Part shown: piece by piece, positions 3,875 to 11,773 of the stretch
How the letters are laid out: each line of letters opens with the position of its first letter
How positions within the stretch are numbered: position 1 is the first letter of the stretch
Source of the DNA: an uncultured bacterium
GTDB lineage: Bacteria > Krumholzibacteriota > Krumholzibacteriia > LZORAL124-64-63
Direction: 5' to 3'
Assembly (NCBI GenBank): GCA_903912525.1
Contig: CAIWHK010000072.1
Coordinates: 1 to 64,000, forward strand
Length of the DNA: 64,000 bases
The notes under the pieces: model-generated
The model's input: the letters and a program-made list of their open reading frames with translations, nothing else
What the model was told of the DNA's origin: nothing
The model's database searches: none
Translations under genes and position numbers: made by a program

Positions 3875-5266
3875 CTACTTCCAATGCGAAGAGATAAACG
3901 CCGCCACCTCCGGACTGCCCCCCTGCAGCACCAGGTACCCGTCGTGCGGCTCGCGGTCGGTGATCTCGCCGTTGACCGGCGTCAGCATCAGCCGCCGCAC
4001 CTCGTCGTGGTCCTGGCTCTGGCCCAGCGCCCAGCCCAGCTTCACGTAGGCCACCTCGGGCAGCATGTTCGCCGCCGGGATCACGCCCAGGCCCATCAGT
4101 TCGCGGCCCGTCTCGTAGACGTACATCTGCACGTAGCCCCACATCGTCTGCACCGTCATGTAGACGTGCACGCCGGCCGAGCGCGCCCGGTCCAGCGCCG
4201 GGTAGAGCGGCTTGTTGACGTGGCCGAGGCCCGTGCCCGCGATGACGATGCCCTTGTAGCCGGCGGCGATCAGCGAGTCGATGATGTCCGGCTTCATGTT
4301 CGGGTAGTAGTAGACCAGCGACACGCGGTCGTCGAAGACGGCCTTCAGGTCCACCTTGCGTTCCGTGCGGCGGCGCCGGTAGTCGTCGCGGTACGGCGTG
4401 ACGCCCGTCAGGTCGACCTTGCCCAGGGGGATGTCGCTGAGGGTGCGGAACGTCGACCGGTAGCTCGAGTGCATCTTGCGCACGCGGGTGCCGCGGTGCA
4501 GCAGGCCGTACTCGTCCGACGTGGGGCCGAACATGCAGACCATCACCTCGGCGATGTCCGAGGTGGCGGCCGTGCGCGTGGCGTTGATCAGGTTGATCGC
4601 CGCGTCGGATGACGGCCGGTCGCTGCTGCGCTGGCTGCCCACCATCACCACGGGCACCGGCAGGTCCTGCAGCATGAACGACAGCGCGGCGGCCGTGTGG
4701 TGCATGGTGTCGGTGCCGTGCCCGACGACGATGCCGGCCACGCCCTTTTCGATCTCGGCGGCGATCGCGCGCGCCGTGCCCATCCACTGCTCGGGCCCCA
4801 TGTTCTCCGAGAACACGCCGTAGAGCTTCTCGGTCTCCATGTTGCAGATGTCGGCCAGCTCGGGCACCGAGCCGTAGAGCTCGCCCGGGCTGAAGGCGGG
4901 GATCACCGCGCCAGTGCGGTAGTCCAGCCGGCTGGCGATGGTGCCGCCGGTGCCCAGCAGCTTGACGCGCGGCTTCTTCGGGTCGTGCGGGAAGGCGCGC
5001 TCGGGGATCTGGTAGTGCGCCTCCTTGCGGCCGTGCACGCTGATGCGGTGCACGGTGTCGTGGCGCACGCCGATGTTGTAGCCGGTGTCCAGCTTCAGCA
5101 CGATGTGGTCGGCGTCGGCCGTCTCGCTGCGCGGCAGGATGAGGCCCGAGAAGTCGCCGCGCTTCGTGTGCAGCGTGGCCAGGCTCCAGACCGGCGCCGA
5201 CTGCGCCTTGAGCAGGTCCAGCGTGGGGGAGCGGTAGCCCTTGAAATCGCCGGTGTCCGCGTTCAC
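3875..5266 (-). CDS. gatD: Glu-tRNA(Gln) amidotransferase subunit D (asparaginase-like)
   Basis: Glutaminase subunit of the archaeal-type GatDE complex, which converts Glu-tRNA(Gln) to Gln-tRNA(Gln). The 463-aa protein has the N-terminal GatD-specific beta-barrel (about residues 1-95) and then a type-I asparaginase domain. The asparaginase motif GTGGTIAS is at 105-112 (Thr106 the expected nucleophile) and a second motif, GHGTDTMHHT, carries the Thr-Asp pair. The length and N-terminal extension separate GatD from plain L-asparaginase (about 330 aa). The GTG start at 5266 has an AAGGAGG Shine-Dalgarno, and its first bases overlap the gatE stop (GTGA), implying translational coupling. GatDE is regarded as an archaeal system, so its presence here is unusual. 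An asparaginase-only role is unlikely given gatE next door. Confidence 0.93.
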   Translation of the reverse strand: MNADTGDFKGYRSPTLDLLKAQSAPVWSLATLHTKRGDFSGLILPRSETADADHIVLKLDTGYNIGVRHDTVHRISVHGRKEAHYQIPERAFPHDPKKPRVKLLGTGGTIASRLDYRTGAVIPAFSPGELYGSVPELADICNMETEKLYGVFSENMGPEQWMGTARAIAAEIEKGVAGIVVGHGTDTMHHTAAALSFMLQDLPVPVVMVGSQRSSDRPSSDAAINLINATRTAATSDIAEVMVCMFGPTSDEYGLLHRGTRVRKMHSSYRSTFRTLSDIPLGKVDLTGVTPYRDDYRRRRTERKVDLKAVFDDRVSLVYYYPNMKPDIIDSLIAAGYKGIVIAGTGLGHVNKPLYPALDRARSAGVHVYMTVQTMWGYVQMYVYETGRELMGLGVIPAANMLPEVAYVKLGWALGQSQDHDEVRRLMLTPVNGEITDREPHDGYLVLQGGSPEVAAFISSHWK

Positions 5267-7146
5267 GAGCGCGCCTCCTTGGGGGATCCCTCGAGCCATT
5301 CGCGCACGAGCTTGCCGGGCACGAGGCCCCGCAGCCCGGGCATGACCGCGCCCATCAGCGCCTCGGTGCGGCGGTCGCCCTCGGCGGGCCACTGGGCGCC
5401 GCCCGCGCCGCCGGCGGCCAGCGCCACGGCCAGCGCTTCGTCGAACTGCCGACGGCCGGCCTTGTCGTCGATGCGCGCGGCGACCTCCTCCTCGGCGGCC
5501 CAGAGCGCCTCGGGGATGAGCCGACCGGCCGCGAGCCCGGCGACGACCTCTTCCCACCAGGGGCCGGCCGCGCGCAGGCTGGCCGGGCGCGGCGTCGAGC
5601 GGTCCAGCAGCAGTGACGCCAGTTGCGTGGGGGTGAACGTCGCATCCTTCGGCAGCCGCGCCGCCAGGTGCTCGAACAGGTCCCAGGCGCGGTGGCGGCT
5701 GAGCCGGTGGGCCAGGTCGGCGCCCACGCCGAGCTCCTGCAGCTTCACGAGGCGCTCCCACGGGCGCAGCGGCAGCCGCGCGGCGATGCCGTCGATGCGG
5801 GCATCCTCGAGCGGGATGGGCGGCAGGTCGGTGTCCGGGTACATGCGGTCGGCGCCGGGTAGGATGCGCTCGAAGCCGTTGGTGCCGTCGTCCAGCGCCT
5901 GGCGCGTCTCGTTCGGCACGCCGGCCACAGCGTCTCGGGCGCGGATGGCGATCTCGCGCGCGGCGGTCTCCACATCGGGCCGGTTGCCCCAGACCAGGAT
6001 GAGCGGCATGTCGGCCGCGGTGCCGCAGGCCTTGCTGACGCGGCCCCACTCGGTGCTCGAGAGCGAGGGCGCCGTCTGCGTCGAGACCACCAGGTTCGGC
6101 AGCTGGTCCAGGCAGGCGATGACGCGCACGCGGTCGCTGAACTCCTGGAGGAACGACGTGTGCGGCTGCGTCTGCACCTCGAGCAGGCCCTGGAAGCCCG
6201 GCAGCGGGCAGGCGCCCACCATGGCGCCCTGGGCCACGGCCTGGGCGATGAAGCTGCAGGCGGTGCCGCGCACCTGCGTGGTGACGTCGACCAGGCGGTC
6301 CGGGATGCTGTCGGCGGTGACGCCGCGCTTGGCCAGCTCGCTGCGGATGCCCAGCAGCGAGCGCTGCCTGAGCGCCTCGTTGTGGGTCAGCCGGCCGACA
6401 TCACGCAGGCTGGGCACGCCCTTGATCTCGACGCGCGTGCCGCCGTTCACGCTGACGTTGACGTCCTGGCGGGCGGCGCCGGCGCCGGTGCGGACCATGC
6501 CGCCGCTGCGCGCGAGGAAGCGCAGGATCTGCCCGACGGCCACCGCTTCCTGCGGCGTGACCATGTCGGGATCGGTCACCGTCTCGATCAGCGGCATGCC
6601 CAGGCGGTCGGTGCGATAGACGCGGCGGTGGCCCTGGTCGCTGACCTCGCGGCAGGAGTCCTCCTCGATGCTGATCTGCCGGATGCGCACCGTGCGCGCG
6701 CCGAACGGGACGCGGCCGTCGGTGCCGATGATCGCCGTGCGCTGGAAGCCGGTGGGGATGCTGCCGTCCAGGTACTGCTTGCGGGTGATGTGCACTTCGC
6801 TGACGACGTTGCAGCCCAGCAGCATCGCCATCAGCAGGCTGCCGTCCAGGGCCACGTCGTCCATCTCGAAGGGCGGCGCATCGTCCATCTCGTATGTGCA
6901 GACCGTCTCGCGGTTCAGCAGGTAGACGATCTCCTTGTGCGTCTTGAATTCCATCAGCGCGGTGCCGTCGTACTCGCCCATCTCCGAGAGCGTCGGACGC
7001 ATGTGGCGCAGGATCTCCGCGTCGTGCGTGTCGCGGTTGTAGCGCCCGGCCGGGCAACGGCAGAACAGCTTGCGCACCGTCAGCAGCTGCTGGTGGATCT
7101 CGAGCCCGCAGCGGAAGCCGAGGGCGGCGTAGTCGTCGTCCGACAT
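5263..7146 (-). CDS. gatE: Glu-tRNA(Gln) amidotransferase subunit E
   Basis: tRNA-binding kinase/transamidase subunit of GatDE: it phosphorylates Glu-tRNA(Gln) and transfers ammonia delivered by GatD. The 627-aa protein starts with the GatB/E signature GLEIHQQL and a cysteine pair (LFCRCPAG). An AspRS-like GAD insertion follows near GVPNETRQALDDGTNGFERI, with PGADRMYPDTDLPPI next to it, and the C-terminus ends with a YqeY-like tail domain. The GAD insertion and length mark it as GatE rather than GatB (about 480 aa). I chose the ATG at 7146 because archaeal GatE proteins begin within about 10 residues of GLEIHQQ; a GTG at 7224 would add 26 residues. It is followed at once by gatD (4-bp overlap) and diverges from rex. 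Confidence 0.92.
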   Translation of the reverse strand: MSDDDYAALGFRCGLEIHQQLLTVRKLFCRCPAGRYNRDTHDAEILRHMRPTLSEMGEYDGTALMEFKTHKEIVYLLNRETVCTYEMDDAPPFEMDDVALDGSLLMAMLLGCNVVSEVHITRKQYLDGSIPTGFQRTAIIGTDGRVPFGARTVRIRQISIEEDSCREVSDQGHRRVYRTDRLGMPLIETVTDPDMVTPQEAVAVGQILRFLARSGGMVRTGAGAARQDVNVSVNGGTRVEIKGVPSLRDVGRLTHNEALRQRSLLGIRSELAKRGVTADSIPDRLVDVTTQVRGTACSFIAQAVAQGAMVGACPLPGFQGLLEVQTQPHTSFLQEFSDRVRVIACLDQLPNLVVSTQTAPSLSSTEWGRVSKACGTAADMPLILVWGNRPDVETAAREIAIRARDAVAGVPNETRQALDDGTNGFERILPGADRMYPDTDLPPIPLEDARIDGIAARLPLRPWERLVKLQELGVGADLAHRLSRHRAWDLFEHLAARLPKDATFTPTQLASLLLDRSTPRPASLRAAGPWWEEVVAGLAAGRLIPEALWAAEEEVAARIDDKAGRRQFDEALAVALAAGGAGGAQWPAEGDRRTEALMGAVMPGLRGLVPGKLVREWLEGSPKEARS

Positions 7147-10608: not shown

Positions 10609-10637
10609 TTGCTGTTGGTGTTGCTTTACGCTATCTT
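10609..10637 (+). promoter_or_regulatory. Candidate promoter of the HNH gene
   Basis: TTGCTG (10609-10614), a 17-bp spacer and TATCTT (10632-10637), about 48 bp upstream of the HNH start codon. The surrounding 80 bp are markedly AT-rich compared with the rest of the window. Confidence 0.4.
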
Positions 10638-10684
10638 TTCGCCATCAATCCGCGACATCAGAACCTCTGCTGAAAGGCTGCGCC

Positions 10685-11773
10685 ATGGCCGCCATCACCC
10701 TGCCTGTATTTGCCGCCGACCAGTCCGCCAGCCACGTCCATGCGGCCCTGCGCGAGGCGCTCGCAGCCTGCGACCGGGCGCGCGAATGCGCCGTGCTCTG
10801 GTTCGCCGAGGTGCAGCGGCGGTCGCTGCATCGCGAACTCGGCTACGCGAGCCTCGAGCTGTATGCCACGCAGGCGCTCGGCTTCAGCAGCAACCGCTAC
10901 TGGCAGTTCAAGCGGCTGGCCGATGATCTCGACCGGTTGCCGGTGCTGCGAGAGGCCGTTGCCACGGGTGAGGTGGGCTGGACCAAGGCCCAGCAGGTGG
11001 CGCGCGTGGCGACGCCGGCCACCGAGAGTGCGTGGGTGGCGAAGGCGGTGGCGACCGGGCGGCGCGAGCTGGAGCGTGAGGTGCGGCAGTCGCGGCAGTT
11101 GCGCCGGCGCAAGTCGACGGGCGGCGCGGGGCAGCTGGCGCTGGTGCCGGGGGCGGCGGTCGCGCCTGAGGTCGCGCCACCCGTGACCATCTCTCTGCGC
11201 GCAGACGGCCTGCAGTTGGCGCGGTTCGAGGCGCTGGTCGAGAAGGCGCGCAAGCTGGGGACCGTGCCGCGCGATGCCGACCGGATGGACCTGGTGCTGG
11301 CGGCGCTCGAAACGATGGTCGCGGGTGGCGCGGCGCAGGCCGCCGGCCCCGCGACTCAGGCCGCCGGCCCCGCAGCACAAGTGATCGTGCACCAGTGCCC
11401 CGACTGCGCCGCTGCCCACGTCGTGACCAACCGTGGCGAACAGCCACTTGCGCCGGCGCAAGTCGAGGCGATCGCCTGTGATTCGCGCAGCCGGCGGCCG
11501 GGGCGGCCCAATCGCGCGACGATCCCGCCCTCGGTGCGTGCCACTGTCCTGACACGCGATCGGCACCGGTGTTCAACACCCGGCTGTGGAGCCGCGCACT
11601 TCCTGGAAGTGCATCATGTGGTGCCGCGTTGTGCAGGCGGGTCCAACAAGGCGGACAACCTGGTGACGTTGTGCAGCCGGTGCCATGCGTTCGCGCACGA
11701 ACACGGGCACGCGGTTGCGCCGGCGCAAGTAGGGACGGGGTGCGCGTCGGCTGGCGACCTTGACCTGGCCTGA
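10685..11773 (+). CDS. HNH endonuclease (13E12/DUF222-like)
   Basis: A 362-aa protein with the architecture of the abundant, poorly understood 13E12-type HNH proteins. A helical N-terminal domain (about 1-140, with ELGYASLELYATQALGFS and WTKAQQVARVATPAT) is followed by a variable middle and a C-terminal HNH nuclease (about 290-345). The nuclease has zinc-binding cysteines (RCSTPGC, LCSRCH) and the catalytic FLEVHHVVPRCAGGSNKADN. Three copies of a 14-18 bp palindrome are embedded in the coding sequence: one read as LRRRK and two as APAQV, that is, in different frames. A fourth lies 45 bp past the stop. The ATG at 10685 follows GAAAGG. Copies of this family spread between genomes; the cellular role is unknown. 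Confidence 0.88.
   Translation: MAAITLPVFAADQSASHVHAALREALAACDRARECAVLWFAEVQRRSLHRELGYASLELYATQALGFSSNRYWQFKRLADDLDRLPVLREAVATGEVGWTKAQQVARVATPATESAWVAKAVATGRRELEREVRQSRQLRRRKSTGGAGQLALVPGAAVAPEVAPPVTISLRADGLQLARFEALVEKARKLGTVPRDADRMDLVLAALETMVAGGAAQAAGPATQAAGPAAQVIVHQCPDCAAAHVVTNRGEQPLAPAQVEAIACDSRSRRPGRPNRATIPPSVRATVLTRDRHRCSTPGCGAAHFLEVHHVVPRCAGGSNKADNLVTLCSRCHAFAHEHGHAVAPAQVGTGCASAGDLDLA
11099..11112. repeat. 14-bp palindrome, copy 3 (inside HNH gene)
   Basis: TTGCGCCGGCGCAA within the HNH coding sequence, read in a frame that gives LRRRK. Copies 4 and 5 in the same gene are read in a different frame. Confidence 0.85.
11446..11463. repeat. 18-bp palindrome, copy 4 (inside HNH gene)
   Basis: Perfect ACTTGCGCCGGCGCAAGT within the HNH coding sequence, read as LAPAQV. 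It is identical over all 18 bases to copy 1, about 9 kb away. Confidence 0.85.
11715..11728. repeat. 14-bp palindrome, copy 5 (inside HNH gene)
   Basis: TTGCGCCGGCGCAA near the 3' end of the HNH coding sequence, read as VAPAQV. Confidence 0.85.

Follow-up and report, generated by a model that had tools for sequence, protein, structure and literature searches.

Two genes encoding an archaeal-type Glu-tRNA(Gln) amidotransferase, gatE and gatD, lie on the minus strand of the window, by which we mean the whole 64,000-nucleotide stretch analysed here, from contig CAIWHK010000072.1 of an uncultured member of the Krumholzibacteriota. Both genes are intact and full length, and their features are collected in Table 1. 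The coordinates, the start codons and the curated models all agree with the original prediction of a complete GatE and GatD that overlap by a few bases.

Table 1. Features of the gatE–gatD locus, in window coordinates
Feature	Position	Strand	Details or evidence
gatE, Glu-tRNA(Gln) amidotransferase subunit E (kinase/amidotransferase)	5263-7146	-	627 aa, ATG start
gatD, subunit D (ammonia-releasing, asparaginase-type)	3875-5266	-	463 aa, GTG start
GTGA overlap, gatD start codon on gatE stop codon	5263-5266	-	sequence
AspRS-like (GAD) insertion, GatE residues ~281-400 (approximate borders)	5947-6306	-	1zq1_C alignment; weak AspRS fold matches
GatE C-terminal helical/tail region, residues ~511-627, least conserved part	5266-5616	-	per-block conservation; model
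GatD asparaginase-type catalytic domain, residues 99-436	3959-4972	-	Pfam PF00710, PF17763; NCBIfam TIGR00519

Against the NCBIfam equivalog models, GatE scores 460 bits with NF003107/PRK04028 (cut-off 456) and 390 bits with TIGR00134 (cut-off 319.6), and GatD scores 518 bits with TIGR02153 (cut-off 324). The GatB models all score below cut-off on the window GatE. Pfam identifies GatB_N (PF02934) in GatE, and GatD_N (PF18195), Asparaginase (PF00710) and Asparaginase_C (PF17763) in GatD. The nearest PDB entries for both subunits are the archaeal GatE/GatD structures 1zq1 and 2d6f (E-values 1e-84 to 1e-122); bacterial GatB (best E-value 4e-24) and free asparaginases (best 2e-37) are far weaker matches. 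The GatB-like core with an AspRS-type GAD insertion that had been proposed for GatE is supported by PF02934 and by an unbroken alignment with 1zq1 across the insertion, where the AlphaFold model gives weak matches to AspRS and Pfam makes no call at an E-value of 0.001. On these sequence comparisons the genes are a true GatD and GatE, and we regard their identification as secure.

In the GatDE family, GatD releases ammonia, and the glutamate carried by Glu-tRNA(Gln) is first activated and then amidated by GatE. The residues that we take to be the catalytic sites in Methanothermobacter (GatD T101, T177, D178 and K254; GatE H15, E157 and E184) correspond here to GatD T109, T185, D186 and K264, which are invariant in 32 bacterial GatD sequences, and to GatE H18, E161 and E188, which are invariant in 48 aligned bacterial GatE sequences. 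Judged by these residues, GatDE is catalytically intact. Identity to the Methanothermobacter proteins is 46.8% for GatD and 39.2% for GatE, and GatD identity across phyla is approximately 70%. Within GatE, conservation is 0.71–0.87 per 40-residue block in the core (residues 1–280) and 0.28–0.37 per block in the C-terminal tail, which in archaeal GatE touches the tRNA. Archaeal GatE profile models cover the window protein to approximately residue 510, and the tail beyond this point is divergent. The AlphaFold model of GatE, for which 48 bacterial sequences were the input, has a mean pLDDT of 84 and matches 1zq1_C in its fold (E-value 4.8e-44); the tail is present and mostly helical in this model, with pLDDT values of approximately 66–92 except for the final residues.

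A scan of GTDB genomes found at least 555 confirmed bacterial GatDE loci in many phyla. The record titles of the best 80 of these loci name Krumholzibacteriia, Ignavibacteria, other relatives of Bacteroidota/Chlorobiota, Calditrichota, Aminicenantes, other Acidobacteria, Phycisphaerae, Latescibacterota, Zixibacteria, Neomarinimicrobiota, Cloacimonetes, Gemmatimonadetes and Myxococcales. Within the Krumholzibacteriota, the GatE model is matched in 77 of 80 genomes, 61 of them above cut-off; read by score, these matches represent GatE in 66 of the 80 genomes, single-contig ones included, and GatB alone in 11. GatDE is a core gene pair of the Krumholzibacteriota, old and widespread in bacteria, where it coexists with GlnRS. 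The original prediction described GatDE as the archaeal route, and a 2022 review likewise restricts it to archaea; the bacterial loci contradict this description. We found no account of bacterial GatDE in the titles, abstracts and passages that were covered, which does not prove that none exists.

Wherever the contig extends far enough, gatE is almost always followed by a codirectional gatD. No other gene is regularly linked to the pair across the loci, and neighbouring genes were dropped as a functional clue because nothing regular lies beyond gatE–gatD. In seven loci, a codirectional gene whose N-terminus is PIN-like (PhoH-like by eye) is located approximately 1.5 kb 5′ of gatE, and a PIN-like gene is found upstream of gatE in up to nine loci in all (for example L057). 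In the window itself, an ORF at 10609–11773, located between the DUF5916 protein and a large uncharacterised protein, has a C-terminal HNH-endonuclease-like motif (by eye). Two genomes from the same family as the window genome (G113 and G117) have GatB alone and have apparently lost GatE; only one of the 46 near-complete genomes in the phylum is left without any amidotransferase.

The GC3 values of gatE and gatD are 0.96 and 0.98, and the neighbours are alike. The codon use is therefore as originally described, but neither it nor the neighbours are informative about transfer into the window genome, because GatDE is a core pair throughout the phylum.

In trees of both proteins, the bacterial sequences join archaeal GatDE and are separate from GatB and from free asparaginases, so that the trees, the equivalog scores and the structural matches agree with the initial assignment to archaeal-type GatDE rather than to GatB and asparaginase paralogues. 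In the GatD tree the bacterial clade has a support of 100/100, and its stem measures 3.6 changes per site, compared with inner branches that are mostly below 0.2. In the GatE tree the three archaeal sequences form a group of their own, on a long branch apart from every bacterial GatE. Phyla cluster only roughly in either tree. With a small archaeal sample (three GatE and two GatD sequences) and very distant outgroups, the trees do not fix the root of GatDE and fit an ancient transfer from archaea and common descent alike. Of the old or domesticated transfer that was first proposed, the age is upheld, and the single-genome oddity is not. A scan of viral contigs gave no further archaeal GatDE sequences, and plasmid records gave one archaeal gatE copy, on a megaplasmid of Natrinema thermotolerans (L119:3917-5868). 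This copy is split by a frameshift and is without annotation in its record.

Targeted searches of the window genome (4.29 Mb, 97.75% complete) covered glnS, gatA, gatB and GluRS. It encodes GlnRS, one bacterial GluRS, AspRS, LysRS and AsnRS, as well as three AsnB proteins above cut-off. There is no GatB except the match of GatE itself and no GatA above cut-off, the sole GatA-like protein being a secreted-looking amidase. The GlnRS is intact; its top model is a GlnRS/YqeY fusion, yet the protein (L002, on G000:C49) stops before the YqeY domain. The GluRS has an Arg at the position of Thermus thermophilus Arg358, where Arg is usually read as a mark of tRNAGln discrimination. In H. pylori the residue at this position is without discriminating effect (PMC3927822). 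The presence of GlnRS rules out GatDE as the only source of Gln-tRNA in this genome, and the question therefore becomes why GatDE is kept beside GlnRS.

We compared 50 GatDE-bearing bacterial genomes from other species. Above cut-off, 44 of these have GlnRS, 46 have AsnRS and 19 have GatB (31 are without it), and 24 combine full GlnRS and AsnRS with an absence of GatB. AsnB above cut-off is missing in 18 of 51 GatDE genomes. No bacterium known to a 2014 survey combined the two routes to Gln-tRNA(Gln). One genome titled Deltaproteobacteria (G014, locus L021) has GatDE, GatB and two GluRS, one with Glu at the Arg358 position, and no GlnRS; it is possibly a GatDE user without GlnRS.

The window genome has 43 tRNA genes, of which those not individually read match Leu, Ser or Tyr tRNAs in length, and two are tRNAGln genes, with anticodons UUG and CUG. 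The two isoacceptors are of different types. tRNAGln(UUG) is of the E. coli/GlnRS type, with G3-C70, A13 opposite A22 and a 5-nucleotide variable loop, while the features of tRNAGln(CUG) are those of the indirect pathway: C3-G70, U11-A24, a C13-G22 pair, a 4-nucleotide variable loop and no N47. The tRNAGln(CUG) gene is 49 bases from tRNAGlu(CUC) and approximately 2.2 kb from gltX, and this pair beside gltX was found again in G003, G006, G007 and G046; only a small number of related genomes had both isoacceptors read. In the Ignavibacteria (L177-L180) it is the UUG gene that is of the GluRS type, and the split therefore need not track the same anticodon everywhere. In a rough gene set from the window, 503 of 547 glutamine codons are CAG, so that the CUG species would bear much of the load, although tRNAGln(UUG) can read CAG too.

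Dasgupta and Basu searched both tRNAGln isoacceptors in 195 GlnRS-containing bacteria and found U1-A72, G2-C71, G3-C70 and G10 to be absolutely conserved (PMC3927822). The tRNAGln(CUG) described here departs from the G3-C70 rule. In A. ferrooxidans, GluRS1 glutamylates tRNAGln(CUG) and not tRNAGln(UUG) (PMC3927822), and its charging is confined to tRNAs whose D stem is augmented and which lack N47 (PMC9976931). When plasmid records were searched by similarity for tRNAGln(CUG), complete tRNAGln(CUG) genes came up in Sphingomonas, Collinsella and Mycobacterium, groups known to be without GlnRS and to use GatCAB; in the Collinsella match the gene again adjoins tRNAGlu(CUC). A match in Streptomyces is a tRNAArg-like gene.

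Archaeal GatDE recognises the A1-U72 pair of its tRNA (PMC9499178). Here tRNAGln has U1-A72, as does tRNAAsn, and recognition by GatDE must therefore differ from that in archaea. We also considered whether A73 might mark the tRNAGln of GatDE bacteria as archaeal-like, and abandoned this idea because A73 and G73 alternate even inside the family. The tRNAGlu of this lineage (L150:347-422 on the minus strand, L148:1501-1575, L208 and L209) begins with a G1-U72 wobble in place of G1-C72, which may help to separate it from tRNAGln with its U1-A72.

We propose that GatDE is a working Glu-tRNA(Gln) amidotransferase of long bacterial inheritance that acts chiefly on tRNAGln(CUG), with GlnRS taking tRNAGln(UUG); from the sequences, we give this an even chance of being correct. 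The single GluRS would load glutamate onto tRNAGln(CUG), as the identity elements of the tRNA suggest. GatD would then free ammonia and GatE would amidate Glu-tRNAGln(CUG), by the chemistry established for the family, and GlnRS would charge tRNAGln(UUG). Two routes to Gln-tRNA would thus operate in one cell, divided by isoacceptor. Among explanations for the retention of GatDE beside GlnRS the split is the best available, with the balance close to even; against it stand the Arg of GluRS at the Thermus Arg358 position, the small number of related genomes in which both isoacceptors were read, the GluRS-type UUG gene of the Ignavibacteria and the U1-A72 pair of tRNAGln.

The retention could also reflect error correction, in which both tRNAGln species are charged by GlnRS, and GatDE does no more than mend Glu-tRNAGln misformed by GluRS. 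This would suit the strong constraint on GatDE, the intact GlnRS and a GluRS that looks discriminating at one site, which would make Glu-tRNAGln a minor product. However, cells of the E. coli type do without such repair, and tRNAGln(CUG) lacks the G3-C70 pair that is reported to be invariant in GlnRS substrates (PMC3927822), so that good charging by GlnRS is doubtful. We consider this explanation unlikely.

It is rather improbable that GatDE has taken on a new substrate outside translation, or that it is a slowly decaying remnant. The long stem under the bacterial clade and the weakly conserved tail would suit a changed role, but the mapped catalytic residues are all invariant, GatD remains highly similar between phyla, and no gene is regularly attached to the pair; decay is therefore excluded, and nothing points to a new pathway. 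A role on Asp-tRNA(Asn), or in providing asparagine in place of GatCAB, is more improbable still. The frequent lack of GatB among GatDE genomes, the U1-A72 pair shared by tRNAAsn and the genomes without AsnB would agree with it, whereas known GatDE is specific to Glu-tRNA(Gln), and the AsnRS and three AsnB of the window genome disfavour GatDE as a stand-in for an absent asparagine route. Finally, contamination or a recent archaeal transfer into the window genome alone, which the description of GatDE as archaeal and the draft state of the assembly (72 contigs) might suggest, is refuted by the distribution across the phylum and by the separate bacterial clade in both trees, and the genes equal their neighbours in composition; the host is bacterial, as originally stated, and the contig is not archaeal.

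The restriction of GatDE to archaea has served as a premise in reasoning on LUCA and on the question of why GlnRS was never adopted by archaea (PMC9499178). The finding of GatDE as a core pair of one bacterial phylum and in many other phyla, mostly together with GlnRS, takes away this premise, and GatDE should be described no longer as an archaeal gene in one bacterium but as an old and widespread bacterial pair coexisting with GlnRS. In these bacteria, GatDE and GlnRS can be studied within the same cell. Should the isoacceptor split prove true, it shows that GlnRS can be gained without loss of the amidotransferase, and represents an intermediate state between indirect and direct glutamine charging. 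Tentatively, and with somewhat less than an even chance, we suggest a large bacterial assemblage with both Gln-tRNAGln routes in each cell, split by isoacceptor, in which the age of GatDE bears on its presence in the last common ancestor.

Compared with archaeal GatDE (Pyrococcus abyssi, 1zq1; Methanothermobacter thermautotrophicus, 2d6f), the pair described here has the same subunits, domain order, catalytic residues and GatE fold. It differs in its bacterial host with GlnRS, in the U1-A72 of tRNAGln and in the divergent GatE tail; the described archaea are without GlnRS, and this difference concerns the role of the enzyme and not its membership of the family. Bacterial GatCAB carries out the same kind of reaction, and GatB has the PF02934 amidotransferase domain in common with GatE, but the GatE described here fails the GatB models, and its genome has no GatB and only the secreted-looking amidase as a GatA-like protein. 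Bdellovibrio and Deinococcus (PMC4206432) also retain an amidotransferase beside both direct synthetases, having GlnRS, AsnRS and GatCAB; their GatCAB is explained by asparagine supply via Asp-tRNAAsn (PMC4206432), whereas the window genome has AsnB, and its amidotransferase is GatDE. The GluRS1 system of Acidithiobacillus ferrooxidans (PMC3927822, PMC9976931) resembles ours in the augmented D stem and missing N47 of tRNAGln(CUG). There, GlnRS is absent and GluRS2 takes tRNAGln(UUG), whereas here GlnRS would serve tRNAGln(UUG), and GatDE would replace GatCAB.
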